Shown piece by piece: positions 36,004 to 46,560 of a stretch of DNA of 52,522 nucleotides (position 1 is the stretch's first letter; every line of letters starts with the position of its first letter). The notes under the pieces were generated by a model. The model saw nothing but the letters and a program-made list of their open reading frames with translations. It was not told the DNA's origin and searched no databases. This stretch comes from a bacterium (GTDB taxonomy: Bacteria > Planctomycetota > Planctomycetia > Planctomycetales > Planctomycetaceae), in assembly GCA_016124895.1 (NCBI GenBank), contig WGMU01000083.1:1-52522 (forward strand). Direction: 5' to 3'. A program made the translations under genes and the position numbers.

Positions 36004-36618
36004 ATGTCGGCAGCCCCGAAAACACAGGTCAGTCTGATTCTGCGATTACGGGATCCAGGTGACGTCTCTGCCTGGGAAGAATTCGTCACAATTTACCGCC
36101 CAGTCATTGTGCGTCTGGCCGTTGCTCATGGGCTGCAGCATTCTGACGCCGACGACCTCGCTCAGCAGGTGCTGCTGTCGGTCGCTCGGCGCGTACCTGG
36201 CTGGGAAGCCGATCCACAGCGAGCCCGGTTTCGGACCTGGCTGGGACGCGTCGTTCGCAACGCAGCCTTGAACGCCCTTTCGCGTCGAAAGCCTGATCGA
36301 GCCGCTGGAGGGACTTCGGCGCTTGTTCTGATCAACGGCAAAGCTGCTGAGGATTGTGATGACGCTGAGGTGCTCGAACTGGAATGGCGACGGGAAGCAT
36401 TCCGCTGGATTGCCGACCAGATTCGTGATGAGTTTCAGCCGAAGACCTGGGAAGCATTCTGGCTGACTGCGGTTGAAGGGCTCAGCCCCGATCAGGCCGC
36501 CAGGCAGACGGGCAAATCGATTGGAGCCGTCTATGTGGCGCGGAGCCGCGTGATGACGCGGTTTCAGGAACAGGTTCGCACGCTGTCTGGCGATGAGCCT
36601 GCCGAGGTGATTCGATGA
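36004..36618 (+). CDS. ECF-type RNA polymerase sigma factor (planctomycete group)
   Basis: A 204-residue sigma-70 family protein. Region 2 spans about residues 22-95: WEEFVTIYRPVIVRLAVAHG, SDADDLAQQVLLSVARRVPGW and RFRTWLGRVVRNAALNALSRR cover the core-binding and -10 recognition helices. Region 4 spans about 135-195 (WEAFWLTAVEGLSPDQAARQ and GKSIGAVYVARSRVMTRFQE), ending in the -35 recognition helix. The N-terminal TQVSLILRLRDP is typical of ECF groups linked to protein kinases in planctomycetes. It overlaps the following kinase gene by 4 nt (ATGA), so the two are made together and the kinase is its likely regulator. Confidence 0.93.
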   Translation: MSAAPKTQVSLILRLRDPGDVSAWEEFVTIYRPVIVRLAVAHGLQHSDADDLAQQVLLSVARRVPGWEADPQRARFRTWLGRVVRNAALNALSRRKPDRAAGGTSALVLINGKAAEDCDDAEVLELEWRREAFRWIADQIRDEFQPKTWEAFWLTAVEGLSPDQAARQTGKSIGAVYVARSRVMTRFQEQVRTLSGDEPAEVIR

Positions 36619-38840
36619 CGATCCAGTCAAATCCCTGCCCGCATGGGAACGTTGCACAGTTCCTCGACGGCACGCTGAGTCGTGCGGCGCAGGCAATGTT
36701 TGAAACGCATCTGGATCAATGCGAGCGATGTCGAGAACTGCTTGATCAGTCGGTTGCCAGCGAACGGGACTGGAACGAACTCCGGGTTTCGCTTTCGGCG
36801 GACGGGCTTGCGCGCACAGGTCTGCTCGATCGTCGAAGCCAGGCCGCCGCACGCTCTGATGACCTGTCGTTTTACCGGCGAATGCTTTCCCCAACCGACG
36901 ATCCTCGAATGCTGGGGCGGATCGCGAACTACGAAATCGTGGGGCTGCTGGGCCACGGTGGAATGGGAGTCGTCTTCAAGGGCTTTGATGCGGCTCTGAA
37001 CCGATACGTCGCCATCAAGATGATGGCACCGCAGTTTGCCTCCAGTGGTGCGGCGCGGCAGCGTTTCTTCCGCGAGGCTCAGGCCGCCGGCGCTGTCGTT
37101 CATGAGCACATTATCGCCATTCACTGTGTCTCAACGTGGCAGGACATCCCGTATCTCGTGATGCCTTACGTCCGCGGCGTTTCACTGCAGAAGCGGATTG
37201 ATGACGAAGGCGCCTTGCAGCTTCGCGAACTGCTCCGGATTGGAATGCAGGTCGCTTCCGGGCTGGCTGCGGCACACGCCCAGGGGTTGATTCACCGCGA
37301 TGTCAAACCAGCGAACATCCTGATGGAGGAGGGCGTAGAGCGTGTTGTGCTCACTGACTTCGGTCTCGCTCGAGCTGTTGACGACATCCGCCTGACGAGA
37401 ACGGACACGCTTGTCGGCACGCCGCAGTACATGTCTCCCGAGCAGGCCAGAGATGAATCGCTCGATTTCCGCACCGACCTGTTCAGCCTGGGGAGCGTCC
37501 TTTACGAAGCCAGCACGGGGTGTCCGGCGTTTCAGGCCGCTACCAGTTACGGAGTGCTGCGCAGGATCAACGACCAGCAACCGACGCCGATTCAGGAACT
37601 CAACCCCGATATCCCGGAGTGGTTTGCCCGGATCGTTGAACGGCTGATGGCGAAGGAACCTGCCGAGCGCTTTCAATCCGCCGCCGAAGTCGCGTCGCTG
37701 CTGCGGCAGTGTCTTTCGCATGTGGAACAGCCGCGTCTGACAGGACTGCCAGCGTCGCTCACCAAGACTGCCTTTCCAACCCCGTTTCGGTTCACAAGGA
37801 GATTCGCGATGTACACAGCGCTGCTGACGTTTGCTCTCGGCATTGGTGCCACCATGATGCCGTCCGGTCCTGATGACACGCGCGAGCCAGCTTCTCAGGC
37901 TGCCGCTAAGAACAAAGGCAAGACGCCAACGAAATACTCCTCGGCGCAGGAAGCGTTTCAAATCGGAGCGGCGTTCTACAACTCGCGAAACTTCACAGCT
38001 TCGCGCGAACCGTTTGAGGCAGTTCTGCGACTGGCCAGAGACGATGAGGAACTGAAACTCAAAGCTTATGAGGCTCTGCTGCCTGCCTATCGGGAGATTC
38101 CGGAGTTTGAGCCGTTTCAATCGGCCGCTGAATACGTCATCTCCCACCACAGGCAGGACGCCAGCCGGTCACTGACTCGCCGCAGCTATCTGTCGTTTGC
38201 TTTCAACCGTGGCCAGATCAAAAACATCGTCGACCGGTACGAGAAACAACTGAAGAAAGACCCCGATAACTGGCTGGCGGTTTACATGCTTTCGGAAATC
38301 TACTCAACCGGCGCCGGACTGCCTCCCAGCGTCAGTCATTCCAAACGAGCCATCGAACTGATTGAACGTCTGGCCAAACTGGATGCGGAACGGAAAAAGG
38401 CCGAGGGTAAAACAGACACGGAAATGTCTCCCGTCGAGGCGGCAAAAATCAGCCGCGAGAAAGGCAAGCTCGCTCAGCAGTACATGCGGGCAAAGAATTA
38501 CCGCAAAGCTGCCGAGTTGTACGAAGAGATTGCTCCGCTCGATCCCGCCACGCAGGCCTGGAACCTCAAGGAAGCCGCGGCAGCGAGTCTCAAACTCGGC
38601 GATAAGGAGAATGCGTTACGTCTGGCACTCGCCGCAGAGAAGGCTCCGGCGGAAGCACGCAACGATCAGCTCACGCACTTCTTTGAGCGAAACCTCGGCG
38701 ACACCTTCATGACGCTCGGGATGCCCCAAAAGGCAATCCCCCATTTCGAGATTGCCGTTCAGAAAACGACCATCGAAGGCTACGTGAAAGACACCAAAGC
38801 TTCGCTGCAGGAAGCGATTGAGAAATCAAAGAACGAATAA
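36615..38840 (+). CDS. Zinc-finger anti-sigma-like/Ser-Thr kinase/TPR membrane protein
   Basis: A 741-residue fusion. Residues 8-45 contain a ZAS-type zinc finger (His32 with C36 and C39 in HLDQCERC), as in anti-sigma factors. A Hanks-type kinase (about 106-370) follows, with the Gly loop LLGHGGMGVVF, Lys135 (VAIKMM), HRDVKPAN (Asp229) and DFG (248-250), then GTPQYMSPEQA. A membrane helix (about 393-412) leads to an extracytoplasmic part of about 330 residues with TPR-like helices (YNSRNFTASREPFEAVLRLA, NYRKAAELYEEIAPLDP, LGMPQKAIPHFEIA). All catalytic residues are present. Coupled translation with the sigma factor suggests that the kinase domain senses through TPRs and controls sigma activity. 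Confidence 0.93.
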   Translation: MTIQSNPCPHGNVAQFLDGTLSRAAQAMFETHLDQCERCRELLDQSVASERDWNELRVSLSADGLARTGLLDRRSQAAARSDDLSFYRRMLSPTDDPRMLGRIANYEIVGLLGHGGMGVVFKGFDAALNRYVAIKMMAPQFASSGAARQRFFREAQAAGAVVHEHIIAIHCVSTWQDIPYLVMPYVRGVSLQKRIDDEGALQLRELLRIGMQVASGLAAAHAQGLIHRDVKPANILMEEGVERVVLTDFGLARAVDDIRLTRTDTLVGTPQYMSPEQARDESLDFRTDLFSLGSVLYEASTGCPAFQAATSYGVLRRINDQQPTPIQELNPDIPEWFARIVERLMAKEPAERFQSAAEVASLLRQCLSHVEQPRLTGLPASLTKTAFPTPFRFTRRFAMYTALLTFALGIGATMMPSGPDDTREPASQAAAKNKGKTPTKYSSAQEAFQIGAAFYNSRNFTASREPFEAVLRLARDDEELKLKAYEALLPAYREIPEFEPFQSAAEYVISHHRQDASRSLTRRSYLSFAFNRGQIKNIVDRYEKQLKKDPDNWLAVYMLSEIYSTGAGLPPSVSHSKRAIELIERLAKLDAERKKAEGKTDTEMSPVEAAKISREKGKLAQQYMRAKNYRKAAELYEEIAPLDPATQAWNLKEAAAASLKLGDKENALRLALAAEKAPAEARNDQLTHFFERNLGDTFMTLGMPQKAIPHFEIAVQKTTIEGYVKDTKASLQEAIEKSKNE

Positions 38841-38921: not shown

Positions 38922-41087
38922 TCAGACTTTGACGTTTTCAATGCGTTCTTTGCCGAGGAATTCCAGCGTGACGTCGGCGATGCGGAGGCCGACTGATTGG
39001 GGTTCCGCTGCTGCTGGAAGCTGCAGTGGCTGCTTGCTGCGTCGAGTGACTTCGAGCATGACACCCATGCCCGCTCCGAAGGAGAAGTTCGCTCCGGGAT
39101 TTGGATTGACGAACTGCTTGACGAGTTCCACGGTCTGCCAGTCGTCGCCTGGTTTGCAGAGTTCCGGCGTGAAGTCGAGCGATGCCAGCGGGTGGACTTC
39201 GCTGAGCGACTTCTGCTGCGTCGTGTACTGGTAAAACGAGATCCGGCACGTGAACGCGTTGCGAAACGCGGCGTCGAAGAACTCCGCTGACGTCGCCTCG
39301 CCCCGCAGCCGCACACGGAAGCGATACGTTCCCGCGAAGGGGCTGCGGACTTCCTGAGCCAGGATGGCTCGCGCGTCTCCACTGAGTGGCTCGACGGTTG
39401 TTGCGGCGGGCTGTCGCAGACCGATGAAGACAGAATCGGCCGCGGAGTCCGCCGCCGGGTCAGAGGTCAGCGCTGACGAGTGACGGACTCCGAATACGCC
39501 ATCACGGTCTGTCAGCAGAAGCGGCGTTGCACGCCAGCCCTTCGGACGCGACGGGGCATCGATTGGCTTCAGAACGTCATTGCCACTGAAGGCCGTGTCT
39601 TTGAGCAGAGCTTTTGGATCGAAGTCGGGCACGCGGGCGATGTCGCCGGTCGAGCGTACGCGTTGGACGGTTGCGGGTTCGGTGCCGAGCAGCGTGAACA
39701 GCGGCTCGCGTTCGGTCAGTCGATTCGGTCGGTTCTGGCGGTCGAGAAACGAACCGAGGTGCGACAGGCCGAGCAAGTGAAACATCGTCGCTGTCAGGTG
39801 ACCGGGATCGACGCGGTCAATCGCCGGGTAGGCGCCGTTGCGATCGCTGGCCCCGTATACCTGGCCGCCGCTGATTCCGGCTCCGGCCATCGCGAAACTG
39901 AAGACGGGACCCCAGTGATCACGTCCGCCTTTGGCGTTGATCTTTGGCGTTCGGCCGAACTCACCGATCGCGACAACCAGTGTTTCGTCCAGCAGGCCGC
40001 GATCGTCGAGATCTTCGAGCAATGCCGAAAAGCCAACGTCGAACATCGGGCACAGGACGTCTTCAACTCGATCAGCATTCTGCGCGTGTGTGTCCCACAG
40101 CGGGTTGTCGACAGCATTGTCTCCGGGCTCGCGCGGCCATTGAACATGGACGAGCCGCACTCCGGCCTCGATGAGCCGCCGCGCCAGCAACACGCACTGG
40201 CCCCAGCGATTGCGTCCGTAACGGTCGCGGACTTTGTCTGGTTCGCTGGAGATATCGAACGCGTGTCGCGCCTTGCCCGATGTCAGCAGATCAAACGCCT
40301 GCTGTTGAAACGTGCCGTAGGTTCCGGCCGCCGTTCCGGCAGAGATCTGATCGAAGCGGGATTCCAGTTGAGTCAGCAGCGACTGACGACGGTCGAGCTG
40401 CAGCGGTGTGATCGAATCCGTGCGCAGACTTTCGATTTCGTAGTTCGACTGTGACGGATCGCCGACGAAGACCTCAGGGTTCCACTGTGGTCCCATAAAG
40501 CCGGCGGTCTGACCGGCCGGCGTTACGTTTTCATTGAGACGCATCACGTCCGGCAGCCAGACCGTGCTGAGGGCCGGCAGTTCGTTGCTCGGCCTCTGCC
40601 GCTTGACGATGGACCCGAAGTACGGCCAGTCGGTTGGCGATATCGTGCGGGGATTGGGGCCGCGGTACTTGTGCCCGGTCAGCACCCACGCTCCGCTGGA
40701 TGAATGCACGTTGTCGTCAGTCGACATTGACCGGATGACGGCCAGCTTCTCGGCGTGCAGCGAGGTTCGCGGCAGCAGTTCGCAGAACTGAATGCCGGGG
40801 ATGGTGGTGCTGATGGGGCGGAACGGCCCGCGAATCTCCAGCGGAGCATCCGGTTTTGGATCGAACGTCTCATGCTGCGGAGGTCCTCCGGCCAGGTAGA
40901 GGAAGATAATGTTCTTCGCCCGGCCAAACGCCCGGTCATAAGCCGACTCGGGTTGTTCCAGGCTGTCGCGTGCCTGCAGCAGTGACGGCAGCGAGAGCCC
41001 GCCCACGGCGAGCGAGCCAATCCGCAATAACTCACGACGGTTGAGGCCGTCGCACAAACGCGTTCCGCGGTGGAGAATTTTCAGCAT
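38922..41087 (-). CDS. DUF1501 secreted protein with long C-terminal extension
   Basis: A 721-residue protein. The Tat signal is NRRELLRIGSLAVGGLSLPS. The DUF1501 core runs to about residue 470: IIFLYLAGGPPQHETFDPKP, STDDNVHSSSGAWVLTGH, AIGEFGRTPKINAKGGRDHWG and MFHLLGL. The last 220 residues form an extra region with beta-strand character (GTYRFRVRLRGEA, RISFYQYTTQQKS, MGVMLEVTRR) that most DUF1501 proteins lack. The start at 41087 is preferred for the Tat signal; the frame is open another 146 codons, antisense to the divergent gene. It shares a 209-nt divergent promoter region with another DUF1501 gene. Its substrate is unknown. Confidence 0.9.
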   Translation of the reverse strand: MLKILHRGTRLCDGLNRRELLRIGSLAVGGLSLPSLLQARDSLEQPESAYDRAFGRAKNIIFLYLAGGPPQHETFDPKPDAPLEIRGPFRPISTTIPGIQFCELLPRTSLHAEKLAVIRSMSTDDNVHSSSGAWVLTGHKYRGPNPRTISPTDWPYFGSIVKRQRPSNELPALSTVWLPDVMRLNENVTPAGQTAGFMGPQWNPEVFVGDPSQSNYEIESLRTDSITPLQLDRRQSLLTQLESRFDQISAGTAAGTYGTFQQQAFDLLTSGKARHAFDISSEPDKVRDRYGRNRWGQCVLLARRLIEAGVRLVHVQWPREPGDNAVDNPLWDTHAQNADRVEDVLCPMFDVGFSALLEDLDDRGLLDETLVVAIGEFGRTPKINAKGGRDHWGPVFSFAMAGAGISGGQVYGASDRNGAYPAIDRVDPGHLTATMFHLLGLSHLGSFLDRQNRPNRLTEREPLFTLLGTEPATVQRVRSTGDIARVPDFDPKALLKDTAFSGNDVLKPIDAPSRPKGWRATPLLLTDRDGVFGVRHSSALTSDPAADSAADSVFIGLRQPAATTVEPLSGDARAILAQEVRSPFAGTYRFRVRLRGEATSAEFFDAAFRNAFTCRISFYQYTTQQKSLSEVHPLASLDFTPELCKPGDDWQTVELVKQFVNPNPGANFSFGAGMGVMLEVTRRSKQPLQLPAAAEPQSVGLRIADVTLEFLGKERIENVKV

Positions 41088-41296
41088 GGCAGTCTCTCGA
41101 ACGATCGAAACCGGCACTGACTGGCGAAACCTGCTGCCGTAACCCGTCCAACCGGACTTCGAGAGAGCAAGGTTCGACCGCGGTTGACGATAAATCAAAA
41201 GTTGGTCATCAATCGACCGCAGAAATGGCCATGCTGCAAACTGGCTCGAATCAGTTTCGTCCGTCAAGGCGGACTGCGAATCGGGGAGGACTGACG

Positions 41297-42760
41297 ATGA
41301 CATTGCCTCACTGGAATCATCCGACCGTTTCGCGACGGACAGCGGTGAAGGCTGGAGCGGCAGGCGTCCTCGGGTTGGGCATGAACCATCTGGAGGCTCT
41401 GCGGGCGGCGGATGGCGAACAGGCTGAAGCCGCCTCGGCGGGGACGGCGAAGTCCTGTATCTACATCTTTCTTTCCGGAGGCTTAGCGCAACAGGACAGC
41501 TTCGATTTGAAGCCTCATGCGCCATCGGCCATCCGCGGCGAATTCAATCCGATCGCGACAGCGACGCCGGGCATTGAAATCTGTGAGCACCTCCCGCGAC
41601 TGGCTCAGCGCAGCGACAAGTGGGCGCTCGTTCGATCGCTGACGCATCCGACCAACGGTCATACGCTCGGTCATTACTTCATGCTGACCGGTCACTCGGT
41701 CGCACCAATCTTTCGCGGCGATCGGCAGCCGCGTCCGACCGACTGGCCGTCGATTTCATCGATCGTCGGCGACGCCCTGCCTGCACGAAACAATCTGCCG
41801 CCGGCCGTAATGCTGCCTGAGAGGCTGGTTCACTGGTCCGGTGGAACCATTCCCGGAGCGTACGGCGGGATGATGGGTAGCCGTCGCGATCCGTTCATCA
41901 TCGAAGCGACCCAGTACGGCGACCCGTTCTGGCGCGGGGCTTATCCTGAATACACGTTTCCTCAGCTTCCGAAGACCGAACCGACGGCGGCGCGGCCGAC
42001 TGTGTTTCAGGCTCCGAGTCTTGAACTGCAGGCAGGTTTGACGTCCGGCCGCTTTGACCGGCGGCTCGATCTGCTGGGATCAATCGATTACCAGCGCGCA
42101 GCGCTGGAACGCTCGGCCGAGGGCGAGCAGTATGACCGGCATCGGCAGTCGGCCATCTCGCTGCTGGCGAGTGACCGAATCCGCCGGGCGATCGACGTCA
42201 CGAATGCCGACTCGAAAATTCAGGAACGGTATGGCCGCAACACGTTCGGCTGGTCACTGCTGATGGCGTACCGCCTGGTCGAGGCTGGCGTGAACATGGT
42301 GCAGGTCAACCTGGGCAACAACGAAGCCTGGGACACACACGGCGAAGCCTTCTGGCGTTTGAGAGAAAAGCTGTTGCCTCCGACCGACCGCGCGTTGTCG
42401 GCGTTGCTCGACGACTTGAATGGCAGCGGCCTGCTCGATTCAACGCTGATCGTCATGGGTGGCGAATTTGGTCGGACGCCGAAGATTTCAATGGCCGGGA
42501 ACACCTACGACGAGCCGGGGCGCGATCACTGGGGCGCTGTTCAGACACTGTTTTTTGCCGGCGGCGGAGTGCGCGGCGGCAACGTTGTCGGCTCGTCAGA
42601 CAAGGATGCCGCTTATCCGGCGTCCGATCCGCAGAAGCCGGAAAACATGGCCGCGACAATTTACAACGCTCTGGGGATCCCGCGCACGGCAATGTGGCAG
42701 GACGACGTCAGCCGTCCGCACCATATCTACTTCAGCGACCCCATCCGCGGGCTGATGTGA
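41297..42760 (+). CDS. DUF1501 secreted protein with Tat signal
   Basis: A 487-residue protein of the standard DUF1501 size. The Tat motif is VSRRTAVKAGAAGVLGLGMN. The core shows CIYIFLSGGLAQQDSFDLKP, TNGHTLGHYFMLTGHSV, VMGGEFGRTPKIS, GRDHWGAVQTLFFAGGGVRG and YNALGI. The ATG at 41297 is supported by GGGGAGGA seven bases upstream, so the 24 upstream codons are discarded. It is divergent from the 721-residue DUF1501 gene. No PSD1 partner sits beside it, unlike the pair at 17453-22283. Confidence 0.92.
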   Translation: MTLPHWNHPTVSRRTAVKAGAAGVLGLGMNHLEALRAADGEQAEAASAGTAKSCIYIFLSGGLAQQDSFDLKPHAPSAIRGEFNPIATATPGIEICEHLPRLAQRSDKWALVRSLTHPTNGHTLGHYFMLTGHSVAPIFRGDRQPRPTDWPSISSIVGDALPARNNLPPAVMLPERLVHWSGGTIPGAYGGMMGSRRDPFIIEATQYGDPFWRGAYPEYTFPQLPKTEPTAARPTVFQAPSLELQAGLTSGRFDRRLDLLGSIDYQRAALERSAEGEQYDRHRQSAISLLASDRIRRAIDVTNADSKIQERYGRNTFGWSLLMAYRLVEAGVNMVQVNLGNNEAWDTHGEAFWRLREKLLPPTDRALSALLDDLNGSGLLDSTLIVMGGEFGRTPKISMAGNTYDEPGRDHWGAVQTLFFAGGGVRGGNVVGSSDKDAAYPASDPQKPENMAATIYNALGIPRTAMWQDDVSRPHHIYFSDPIRGLM

Positions 42761-43015: not shown

Positions 43016-44707
43016 ATGGCGGACAAGGCATTTGGCCCGTTTGAGCTTGAGGAACAGATTGGTCGCGGTGGGATGGGCGTTGTTTACCGTGCGCGGTATC
43101 GCAAGAACGATCGCATTGTCGCTCTGAAAGTGCTCTCTTCCCGGATGACCGATAATCCGCGCGTGGTCGCGCGGTTCGAACGCGAGATGCAGATTCTCGA
43201 AAGGCTCAAACATCCGGGCGTCGCACGCTATTACGGTGGCGGAGTCGTCAACGGGCAGCAGTTCATCGCAATGAAGCTGATGTCCGGCGGCACGCTCGAC
43301 GACCTGCTGAAGAAGCGTGGTCCGCTGCCATGGGAACAGGTCGTCGAATTCGGCAAACAGATTTGCGACGCGCTCGACCATGCTCACGAAAACGGCGTGA
43401 TTCACCGTGACCTGAAGCCGGCGAATCTGTTTGTCGGCCGGGACCGCGAAACCGGCGAAGAGAAGCTTGTGCTGGGCGACTTTGGGATCGCTTTCGACAC
43501 CAGCGCCGACGGCCTCACCGCAACCGGCATGACCGTTGGAACTTTTCAGTACATGGCTCCAGAGCAGATTACCGGGAAGAAGTCGATCACCGCTCGCACG
43601 GACCTGTACGCATTGGGCTGCGTGCTGTTTCAGATGCTCACCGGGCGAACGCCTTACGAAGGCACATCTCAGGGTGAGATCATGCTGCAGCATCTGCAGG
43701 AGCAGCCGCCACCGCTCCGGCAGCTCGCTCCGGAATGCCCGGTCTGGCTCGAAACAGTCGTGAGTCGTCTGCTGGCCAAAGAGCCCGAGGATCGCCCGCA
43801 CGACGCGGCCTACGTGCGCATGGCTCTCGACGAAGTGCTCGACAAGATGGCCAGTCATGCGGGAGTGACCGCGCACGCCGCCTCGGGCCGACCAAGTGCG
43901 CTGACGATTGAGCAGCTCAACCCGGACCTGAAGAAGGCGCTGCAGCACGGAAAGCAGAAAAAGAAACGCCGCAAACGTGACAACAGCCCGTTTTATGAAC
44001 GGACCTGGTTTCTGCTGCTGTGCCTGGCCGGACTTGCGTGTGGAGTGACCTGGGTTCTGTGGCCGGCCAGTGAGGACGAACTGTTCGCTCAGGCCGAGCC
44101 GCTGATGCAGAGCAGCCAGCCGTCGGATCACGACGATGCGATCCGTAAGTTTCTTGACCCGATGCTTGCACGTTTTCCGGAGGGCCGGCACGCGTCCGAG
44201 GCGCGCGAGTTCATTCGCAGATTTGAGGTTGGGCGGCTGATGCGTCGCCTTACAACGTTCAAGAACCCAAAGACCGAGGCCGAGCGTCTGTTTCTGGACG
44301 CCTGGCAGTTCGAGGAATTCGGCGACCGCGTCTCCGCTCTGGAAAAGTACCGAGCGATGGAGACACTGCTGGCCGGGCGCGAGGGACAGGAGACCTTCGT
44401 GGATCTGGCGAAGGCACGAATTGCCGAAATCGAATCTTCTGCAGAGAAGGCCGTCAGCCGCATCGAACTCGTCAATTCAGAACTCGCTGAAGCCGATCGT
44501 GCCCGGCGGGAAGGAAACCGCCTGCGGGCTGAGGCGATCTGGAACAGCATTATCAGTCTGTACGCAGGGAATGAAGAGTTGCAGCCGCAGGTCGATTACG
44601 CCCGCGCCCGTTTACGCGGCACGCCGTCGGAAGAACTTGAGTTCTCGCCGCAGAGGAAGCCGGTGGACGGGAACAGTACGGCTGCTCCATCCGAACAGAA
44701 GACGTGA
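43016..44707 (+). CDS. Membrane Ser/Thr protein kinase
   Basis: A 563-residue protein. The Hanks-type kinase domain fills residues 7-285: IGRGGMGVVYRARYR, Lys38 (VALKVL), HRDLKPANL (Asp132), DFG at 155-157 and GTFQYMAPEQI. A basic stretch (KQKKKRRKRD) comes before a single membrane helix (about 331-351, WFLLLCLAGLACGVTWVLWP). The C-terminal 210 residues outside the membrane are helical and repeat-like (YRAMETLLAG, RLRAEAIWNSIISLY) and may be degenerate TPRs. All catalytic residues are present. It stands alone, 255 nt after a DUF1501 gene; its substrate and ligand are unknown. Confidence 0.93.
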   Translation: MADKAFGPFELEEQIGRGGMGVVYRARYRKNDRIVALKVLSSRMTDNPRVVARFEREMQILERLKHPGVARYYGGGVVNGQQFIAMKLMSGGTLDDLLKKRGPLPWEQVVEFGKQICDALDHAHENGVIHRDLKPANLFVGRDRETGEEKLVLGDFGIAFDTSADGLTATGMTVGTFQYMAPEQITGKKSITARTDLYALGCVLFQMLTGRTPYEGTSQGEIMLQHLQEQPPPLRQLAPECPVWLETVVSRLLAKEPEDRPHDAAYVRMALDEVLDKMASHAGVTAHAASGRPSALTIEQLNPDLKKALQHGKQKKKRRKRDNSPFYERTWFLLLCLAGLACGVTWVLWPASEDELFAQAEPLMQSSQPSDHDDAIRKFLDPMLARFPEGRHASEAREFIRRFEVGRLMRRLTTFKNPKTEAERLFLDAWQFEEFGDRVSALEKYRAMETLLAGREGQETFVDLAKARIAEIESSAEKAVSRIELVNSELAEADRARREGNRLRAEAIWNSIISLYAGNEELQPQVDYARARLRGTPSEELEFSPQRKPVDGNSTAAPSEQKT

Positions 44708-45283: not shown

Positions 45284-45381
45284 TCATTCGGCTCTGAATG
45301 CTGCTCCAGGAGGTCAGTCGGGCGTGTTGCCTGGCTGGCCTCTTCTCATCATTGAGAGCTTCACTTGACAGGGACCAATGG

Positions 45382-46560
45382 ATGAGACGGGCAACCGTAC
45401 TGGCATGTGCAGGTCTTGCCCTGATTGCCGTTTGGGCCGTGTTGACGTTTCAGTCCCGTGACGAGTCCCGGACGGAACTGGACAGCAGTCGCGCCGGAAC
45501 TCAGGCAGGACCGAGGATGGCGGACGTCGGTGGTCATCTGGGAGATGCTGCGTGTAGCCAATGCCACCCGGACCAGATGCAGGCACACTCGGCCAGCGGG
45601 CACTCGCATACGTTTCGGGCAGCCGCCGATGTCGACTTCATTTCGGAATTGAACGGCCTGAGATTTCGCGACCCAAAGCGCGACGTCGAGTTCCACTACC
45701 TCGCGGATCAGCAGAGCCTGTCTGTGACGCTGCCGGCCCTGTTTGGTGACGAGCCGTTCCCGCTGGATTACGCCTTTGGATCCGGTCTGCACGCAGTGAC
45801 CTTCGTCACGCTCGTTCCGGATCTCTCAGTTCCTGGTGAGAGTCTCGGCGTCGAGCACCGCATGTCGTGGATTACCGGCAGTGGTCCCGGAGTGACGCCA
45901 CAGACGCTTCCCGAGGAACTGCACTCTGACGTCGAGTACTTCGGGCGCCTGCTCGCGGGCGAACGCCTGGAGCGTTGTTTTGGCTGCCACACGACAACGT
46001 GCCGGATTCAGGATCAGCGACTTGTCGACCTTCGGCCGAATGTCGGATGCGAACGCTGTCACGGACCGGGGAAACGGCACGTGCAGGCCGTCAACGCTGG
46101 GGCAGAGGACCTGGCCATTCGAGTGACCCGACCGACTGATGACGCGGCTGCCGAAGTGGCTGCCTGTGCCGAGTGTCATCGTGGAGCCGAGCGAGTGCCT
46201 CCCGAAGAACTCTTCGCAGAGAACTCGATGCTCGTACGGTTTCAGCCGATCGGTCTCGTTCAATCGGCCTGTTACCTGAGAAGCGAGGGAAAGCTGGGTT
46301 GCTCCTCGTGTCACGATCCGCACGCTCCGGCGGCGTCCCGCACGACCGCGGAGTACGAAGCGGTGTGTCTCAAATGCCACGATACCGAAGCGCCAGATCG
46401 GCAGTGTTCGGTTGAGCCGACATCTGGATGCGTTGCCTGTCATATGCCACCGGTTAATGTGCTTTACACGTGGCAGTTTCATGACCATTGGATTCGCGTG
46501 CGAGACGAACCACAGGATCCTCGCGTGAGTTCGAGCGGCGGGAACTCCGATCGTGACTGA
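45382..46560 (+). CDS. Heptaheme c-type cytochrome
   Basis: A 392-residue membrane-anchored or exported protein (MRRATVLACAGLALIAVWAV). Seven CxxCH heme sites are present: Cys58 (CSQCH), 199 (CFGCH), 223 (CERCH), 262 (CAECH), 307 (CSSCH), 329 (CLKCH) and 350 (CVACH). Several extra His residues can serve as distal ligands. The arrangement resembles the cytochrome c554/DmsE-like multiheme group often used in extracellular or periplasmic electron transfer. The ATG at 45382 has AGGGA at seven-base spacing and gives a clean signal; the frame is open from 45298. Its stop overlaps the start of the SGNH/TPR gene by 8 nt, so the two are translationally coupled. Confidence 0.9.
   Translation: MRRATVLACAGLALIAVWAVLTFQSRDESRTELDSSRAGTQAGPRMADVGGHLGDAACSQCHPDQMQAHSASGHSHTFRAAADVDFISELNGLRFRDPKRDVEFHYLADQQSLSVTLPALFGDEPFPLDYAFGSGLHAVTFVTLVPDLSVPGESLGVEHRMSWITGSGPGVTPQTLPEELHSDVEYFGRLLAGERLERCFGCHTTTCRIQDQRLVDLRPNVGCERCHGPGKRHVQAVNAGAEDLAIRVTRPTDDAAAEVAACAECHRGAERVPPEELFAENSMLVRFQPIGLVQSACYLRSEGKLGCSSCHDPHAPAASRTTAEYEAVCLKCHDTEAPDRQCSVEPTSGCVACHMPPVNVLYTWQFHDHWIRVRDEPQDPRVSSSGGNSDRD

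Follow-up and report, generated by a model that had tools for sequence, protein, structure and literature searches.

How might a sigma factor be controlled by a kinase whose gene overlaps its own? The question is raised by a locus in a 52,522 nt stretch of planctomycete DNA (contig WGMU01000083.1 of assembly GCA_016124895.1, family Planctomycetaceae; hereafter the window), where the gene of an extracytoplasmic function (ECF) sigma factor runs into that of a Hanks-type Ser/Thr kinase. The host genome (8.13 Mb in 195 contigs) contains 74 kinase-domain stretches. ECF sigma/kinase pairs are already known in Planctomycetota, and many exist there; in the accessible parts of the literature we met no worked-out mechanism for them. 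We found that the kinase protein begins with what its sequence identifies as a class I (zinc-type) anti-sigma domain, and we think it probable, with some reserve, that the whole protein is a membrane-anchored class I anti-sigma factor with an inserted kinase, which holds the sigma factor and releases it upon phosphorylation.

All features of the pair lie on the + strand. The sigma gene (36004-36618) encodes 204 amino acids (aa) and the kinase gene (36615-38840) 741 aa; the sigma TGA (36616-36618) and the kinase ATG (36615-36617) share the four letters ATGA at 36615-36618, so the coordinates and overlap given in the original prediction, which was made from the sequence without database searches, were exact. 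When the ATG nearest the sigma stop codon was taken as the gene start in homologous pairs, it fell at -30 to +60 nt relative to that stop in 155 of 179 pairs, and the exact 4 nt ATGA overlap recurred in 69 of the 179. One promoter was found around the pair (1.0 expected by chance) and seven terminators (3.8 expected, standard deviation 2.2). The domain content of the sigma factor, regions 2 (36085-36291) and 4 (around 36451-36558) only, is that of an ECF sigma factor. Sigma70_r2 matched with an E value of 2.7e-11, above the Pfam cut-off, and Sigma70_r4_2 at 1.6e-5 (24.9 bits, slightly below the cut-off of 25.7); TIGR02937 (sigma70-ECF) matched above its cut-off, and a profile of the family retrieved ECF sigma factors from the PDB.

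What does the kinase carry at its N terminus? Residues 1-62 (36615-36800) form a domain of the zf-HC2 type by profiles and alignment; the Pfam model matched residues 15-40 above its cut-off (E 6.8e-7 with the whole protein, 3.9e-8 with residues 1-105). The window protein has the motif His32-x3-Cys36-x2-Cys39 (codons at 36708-36731), and Cys8 (36636-36638), unnamed in the original prediction, is a likely fourth ligand that gives a probable Cys-His-Cys-Cys set. Conservation was counted in the 175 homologues with a kinase domain longer than 200 aa, out of 189 with a kinase: Cys8 is kept in 156, His32, Cys36, and Cys39 in 172 each, and all four in 155. We searched a profile of 58 domain sequences against 177,635 PDB sequences. 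The matches to E 0.01 were DdvA (8.2e-7), one protein that joins a very similar segment to a CHAT domain (2.9e-5), RslA (3hug; 2.7e-4), RsiW (6.8e-4), and two ChrR sequences (0.004); nothing besides anti-sigma factors and the one CHAT-domain protein matched at E<0.01. RsrA followed at E 1.0, behind three chance matches to nuclear receptors (0.45-0.53). The segment is a helical domain at the N terminus that bears an Hx3Cx2C motif, it is related by profile to solved class I members, and it is encoded beside a presumably cognate ECF sigma factor; we conclude that it is a class I anti-sigma domain, in agreement with the kind of zinc finger first proposed for it. At E 0.001, the zf-HC2 model recognizes it in only 29 of 70 such kinases, a possible reason for its having escaped notice.

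Such a finger could instead be a redox or metal sensor, as in RsrA or ChrR, with loss of zinc freeing the sigma factor and the kinase otherwise engaged. The four-ligand set of most homologues fits this explanation, as does a weak match to RsrA (25.3 bits against a cut-off of 62.5), although four loci (L022, L187, L200, and L211) lack the ligands yet keep the position of the domain and the linkage to sigma. Zinc and non-zinc members are mixed, and the zinc of RsiW is structural according to the accessible part of PMC7406223. We consider a sensor improbable and a structural zinc the more likely case.

Is the combination of sigma, finger, and kinase peculiar to this locus? Matches to both the kinase protein and the sigma factor were found in 170/170 genomes of the same family, a figure that partly reflects generic kinase and sigma similarity. 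The sigma relatives were mostly titled planctomycete (among 80 records, 1 was Verrucomicrobiota and 1 Limisphaerales). We pooled 205 distinct sigmas (match of at least 150 aa, E <=1e-20), 24 from a kinase search, 4 from kinase regions of the host genome, and 177 from sigma searches. Seven of the loci had no downstream room; the other 198 were scored, with preference given, among overlapping downstream frames, to one with a finger or kinase. A kinase was present at 189 of the 198 and the His/Cys triad at 189, with both at 185 (171 with all four ligands and 14 without the fourth). The four loci named above have a kinase without the triad, three have a finger with no kinase recognized (L048, L225, and L295), and one has a finger and membrane helix only (L062). 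Triad and kinase occurred together in 68 of the 76 loci with room among 80 found by searching contigs with the sigma sequence, and in 86 of the 88 with room among 90 distinct sigmas from 100 regions chosen by sigma matches. Within the host genome, a sigma gene lies at most 2 kb upstream in 5 of 6 zinc-finger kinases versus 8 of 63 others (Fisher p 6e-4; 69 kinases scored, since split or double domains among the 74 stretches were counted once, five of them taken as finger-less on the basis of a finger-motif listing alone). From these sequences we conclude that the design is a widespread paralogous architecture in Planctomycetota and no local oddity. The three elements are linked in most homologues, with the triad kept in 185 of 189 kinase loci. 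None of the 205 sigma frames extends more than 60 aa beyond the sigma domain, and none of 43 phylum-wide loci (see below) fuses sigma, anti-sigma domain, and kinase in one frame.

Two of the exceptional loci can be described further. At L062 (C183, host genome), where the sigma factor is 37% identical to the window sigma, the downstream protein carries a Cys followed by His-x3-Cys-x2-Cys, and residues 121-139 form a hydrophobic helix (mean 1.57); the approximately 497 aa seen contain neither a kinase nor a Pfam match (the protein runs past the end of the locus). This is the layout of an ordinary anti-sigma arrangement, and an anti-sigma domain and helix without a kinase suggest that the kinase lies between the modules of an anti-sigma factor. 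At L048, by eye, the anti-sigma domain and linker pass directly into WD40-like repeats, which may represent a natural deletion of the kinase or an assembly join.

Does the domain bind the sigma factor? Structure prediction of the sigma factor with the kinase N terminus, proposed at the outset, was carried out with AlphaFold on two homologous pairs, each as a single chain of sigma and anti-sigma domain: L010, from a related genome, and L124, a paralogue in the host genome (C81:69707). The mean predicted local distance difference test score (pLDDT) was 77.9 and the predicted template modelling score (pTM) 0.71 for L010, with 214 of 324 residues (66%) at pLDDT >=70; the values for L124 were 80.5, 0.75, and 240 of 327 (73%). 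Mean pLDDT in the blocks containing the anti-sigma helices is 87-97 (L010) and 72-97 (L124), and sigma region 4 reaches 98. Given such pTM values with these proportions of confident residues, we infer that the positions of the three folded bodies, two from sigma and one the anti-sigma domain, are fixed with respect to each other, and both models imply an anti-sigma domain docked on the sigma factor.

Four of the best 50 structure matches per model were helix-turn-helix chains of the LuxR/FixJ/RcsB type (root-mean-square deviation [rmsd] 1.7-2.8 over 61-68 residues), and the aligned stretches began in sigma region 4 (129-139) and ended in the last anti-sigma helix (275-279); the remaining helix-turn-helix matches were mostly confined to region 4. 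In the models, the last anti-sigma helix, which in the window protein spans Trp53 to Leu60 (36771-36794) by alignment, thus seems to occupy the place of the fourth helix of LuxR/FixJ/RcsB-type domains, on region 4. A contact with sigma region 2 was not seen in the two models, as far as alignment ranges tell. The whole model sigma superposed on several inhibitor-bound sigma factors (1or7, 6in7, 8z6g, 6dxo, and, for one of the models, 4nqw) with rmsd 11.5-12.1, on others (1rp3, 6pfj, and 7lq4) with 13-17, and on RNA-polymerase-bound sigma factors with 21-29, at Z values of 6-9, the middling range of the tool; about region 2 alone of the SigW/RsiW, ChrR, and CnrY complexes aligned to the models. 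Among the matches listed, the best Foldseek E value was 4.3e-3, and fold libraries returned sigma factors and helix-turn-helix domains, none matching the anti-sigma domain alone. Direct coupling analysis, for which the 175 pairs (an effective number of 134) give too little depth, linked sigma M184 weakly but suggestively with W53, L56, and A48 of the anti-sigma domain, at ranks 4, 10, and 12.

Neither of two outcomes named beforehand as speaking against the proposal, an N-terminal segment without predicted sigma binding and homologues without the triad, came about. The finger could still be a relic or a general scaffold on a kinase with unrelated targets, the gene overlap serving co-expression only. 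Binding of sigma by the finger is a prediction from sequence and models, and for one zinc-finger kinase of the host genome (C140, L128) no sigma gene was detected in the 2 kb upstream; the joint presence of triad and kinase at 185 of 198 linked loci, the conservation of His32, Cys36, and Cys39 (172 of 175 homologues each), and the docking implied for two homologous pairs make this explanation very improbable.

Could the rest of the protein transmit a signal? The kinase domain (residues 106-356; 36930-37682) matched Pkinase with E 8.1e-47. Its catalytic residues are complete: K135, D229 (HRD), N234, and D248 (DFG) are invariant in 175/175 homologues, and the activation-loop residues T269 and T261 are Thr in 175 and 174 of the 175. 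Intact at all key residues, it is predicted to be an active Hanks-type Ser/Thr kinase, and the full kinase and zinc finger expected in one chain were both found. Directly before the kinase lies a conserved linker motif, L91-x-P-T/S-D-D-P-x-M-L-G-R102 (36885-36920), in which residue 94 or 95 is Ser or Thr in 151 of 175 homologues. A single membrane helix and an extracytoplasmic TPR-like domain had also been proposed. Both are weaker than proposed: the best 19-residue Kyte-Doolittle mean, at residues 397-415 (37803-37859), is 1.59, slightly short of 1.6, and the presumed outer tail contains a TPR-like stretch (38469-38759) that scores below the Pfam cut-offs (TPR_1, 27.5 versus 27.8 bits; TPR_2, 26.4 versus 27.0). 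A mean of at least 1.6 occurs within 120 aa after the kinase in 123 of 139 complete homologues, which makes a membrane helix probable. Tail length varies between 0 and 1558 aa, with a median of 157, and among the 25 of 71 matching families listed for 70 proteins are WD40 in at least two and TPR_1 in at least two. Matches to the kinase protein, among those listed, mostly begin in the first 30 residues and end near 380-430, indicating that the finger and kinase are common to the relatives and the tail is not.

We propose that the protein would act as a one-protein receptor, in which a Ser/Thr kinase is set between a sigma-binding domain and a membrane helix. Freshly made sigma factor would be bound by the anti-sigma domain from the overlapping gene, partly through the last helix on region 4, and would be retained at the membrane. 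An outside signal acting on the tail would activate the kinase, and the kinase, by phosphorylating in cis its own anti-sigma domain or S/T-D-D-P linker, or else the sigma factor held there, would loosen the complex and free the sigma factor for RNA polymerase. The domain probably binds the sigma factor and is likely to sequester it; by analogy with its family, it may also inhibit it. Signal input via the outer tail is a conceivable step, as is a release brought about by phosphorylation.

How does this compare with known systems? The N-terminal Hx3Cx2C domain, the ECF sigma neighbor, and the profile relation (for RsrA, at the E value given above) are shared with RsiW, RslA, ChrR, and RsrA; RsiW is also membrane anchored, as the window protein probably is. 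Unlike these, the window protein has a full Ser/Thr kinase that separates its anti-sigma domain from the membrane helix. The zinc anti-sigma segment of DdvA and of the CHAT-domain protein 8rot (names as in the PDB) is similar, and in 8rot a CHAT domain, which is protease-like, stands in place of the kinase. In Mycobacterium tuberculosis, phosphorylation of the zinc anti-sigma factor RshA by PknB releases SigH (PMC8999054; PMC13147305; both cited here and below from their accessible parts); PknB and RshA are two proteins, whereas in the window kinase and anti-sigma domain are parts of one chain. ECF59, ECF61, ECF62, and ECF217 include planctomycete examples with a sigma/kinase neighborhood like that of the window (PMC8999054), to one of which the window pair may belong, and the window differs in that its anti-sigma domain lies within the kinase protein. 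In the accessible part of a survey of class I anti-sigma factors (PMC7406223), "kinase" occurs twice, for RsbW and in a reference title. We found no description of an anti-sigma domain fused in a sigma-linked kinase in search listings and accessible parts of a few papers outside subscription sources, and one may be in print. Whether a planctomycete ECF class credited to kinases alone carries a hidden anti-sigma domain, so that one protein senses, holds, and phosphorylates for release, we judge to be about an even call. If so, an anti-sigma domain in the kinase chain would provide a common testable mechanism for such receptors, would correct the view of kinase-linked ECF groups as lacking anti-sigma factors, and would make such a receptor a compact component for building synthetic switches.

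Does the finger inhibit the sigma factor, or merely deliver it to the kinase? The finger could tether the sigma factor as a substrate, and the kinase could activate it by phosphorylating it directly, in the manner of ECF43 systems. The ECF43 pairs EcfP-PknT and EcfK-PknS likewise have an ECF sigma gene adjoining that of a Hanks kinase, and PknS is transmembrane (PMC8999054; PMC13147305); kinase-adjacent ECF groups have been predicted to be regulated by phosphorylation (PMC8999054). The window pair differs from ECF43 in its DAED-type acids, the anti-sigma domain on its kinase, and the absence of an STTA/QTTA motif. In ECF43, the acids of the DAED motif in region 2.2 are missing, with uncharged residues and a Thr in their place (PMC8999054); in the window sigma, the DAED-type motif D48-x2-D51 is intact, and 170 of 175 homologous sigmas, the window sigma included, have Asp or Glu at both positions, which points to a sigma factor without need of added charge.

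Further evidence on this alternative comes from a phylum-wide search of 392 genomes (344 with a match), from which we took 43 loci, 23 new and 20 chosen for long frames or distance, a hand-picked, non-random set that includes several seen before. A finger and kinase were present at 22; one had a kinase with a ligand-free domain (L348), one a spurious motif (L369), and nine nothing downstream. At the remaining ten, all distant, the sigma gene is followed by a kinase whose short N terminus contains no anti-sigma domain, indicating that the finger is not the sole basis of the partnership. In a FastTree phylogeny built from 239 sigmas, which carries long-branch warnings, the finger-less kinase loci require 3 changes versus 9.9 when shuffled. 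A stretch W[LIVAW]xx[AVL][RA], similar to the final helix of the anti-sigma domain and picked as a motif after the sequences were viewed, is present in 7 of the 10 finger-less kinases and 0 of 56 control kinases. The short N termini scored weakly, at best 6.0 and 5.6 bits, against a profile of the last anti-sigma helix (best control, 4.2), a test that is insensitive, since three of four finger kinases of the host genome score <=3.1 bits.

The sigma residues bear on the same choice. S93 is Ser or Thr in 65% of 189 finger-kinase, 30% of 10 finger-less-kinase, and 13% of 15 kinase-less loci, a pattern that leans towards kinase-linked sigmas at less than 70% conservation. The corresponding values are 79%, 60%, and 60% for T104 and 98%, 10%, and 47% for T155, and none of the well-conserved Ser/Thr positions, these two included, is kinase-specific. 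With the DAED-type acids retained and the solved relatives of the domain being anti-sigma factors, we regard docking without inhibition as unlikely, although it is the most serious competitor of a sigma factor held by the anti-sigma domain and released by phosphorylation.

Several observations weigh against this preferred mechanism itself. The models are of homologues, single-chain, and zinc-free, and their aligned rows give range ends only. In the coupling analysis, sigma/anti-sigma pairs made up 4 of the top 10 versus 18% expected (p 0.08), little above the sigma-kinase background, and 118 of the top 500 (p 5e-4), where the anti-sigma columns are twice as variable; anti-sigma and kinase columns are mixed among the top inter-protein pairs. 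Five of the 198 sigma loci (L159, L064, L065, L217, and L262) have neither finger nor kinase. The ten finger-less kinase loci, the lack of kinase-specific Ser/Thr among sigma columns with at least 70% Ser/Thr, and the intact DAED motif, unlike that of ECF43, count against a simple story, and the conserved linker Ser/Thr is a candidate phosphosite, nothing further. Of the original proposal that the finger holds the sigma factor under control of the kinase in cis, the holding part is thus favored by the identity of the domain, the docked homologous models, and the retained triad; the control part finds less in its favor.

Finger-less kinases linked to sigma genes also show features of their own. 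Those at L350, L353, L354, L355, L362, L366, L368, and L371 belong to distant planctomycetes, and in most of them the kinase is preceded by a short W[LI] stretch similar to the last anti-sigma helix. In the host genome, the eight sigma-linked kinases that lack the finger have other N termini, and those at L112, L122, L129, L143, and L144 share a different N-terminal module, by eye roughly E-Y/F-x-x-x-x-x-x-G ... P-E-L/Y-A/S, which possibly represents a second sigma-binding or docking module; the kinases at L119, L127, and L130 have this module with no sigma gene detected upstream.

Elsewhere in the window, a second Hanks kinase (43016-44707, + strand) has its kinase domain from almost residue 1, and no sigma gene was detected in the 2 kb before it. 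A DUF1501 protein is encoded at 41225-42760 (+ strand), and a long frame on the opposite strand (38922-41525, -) overlaps its gene at 41225-41525, so that at least one of the two starts probably lies further in. The frame at 45298-46560 (+ strand) encodes a multihaem cytochrome-like protein with paired CXXCH motifs.

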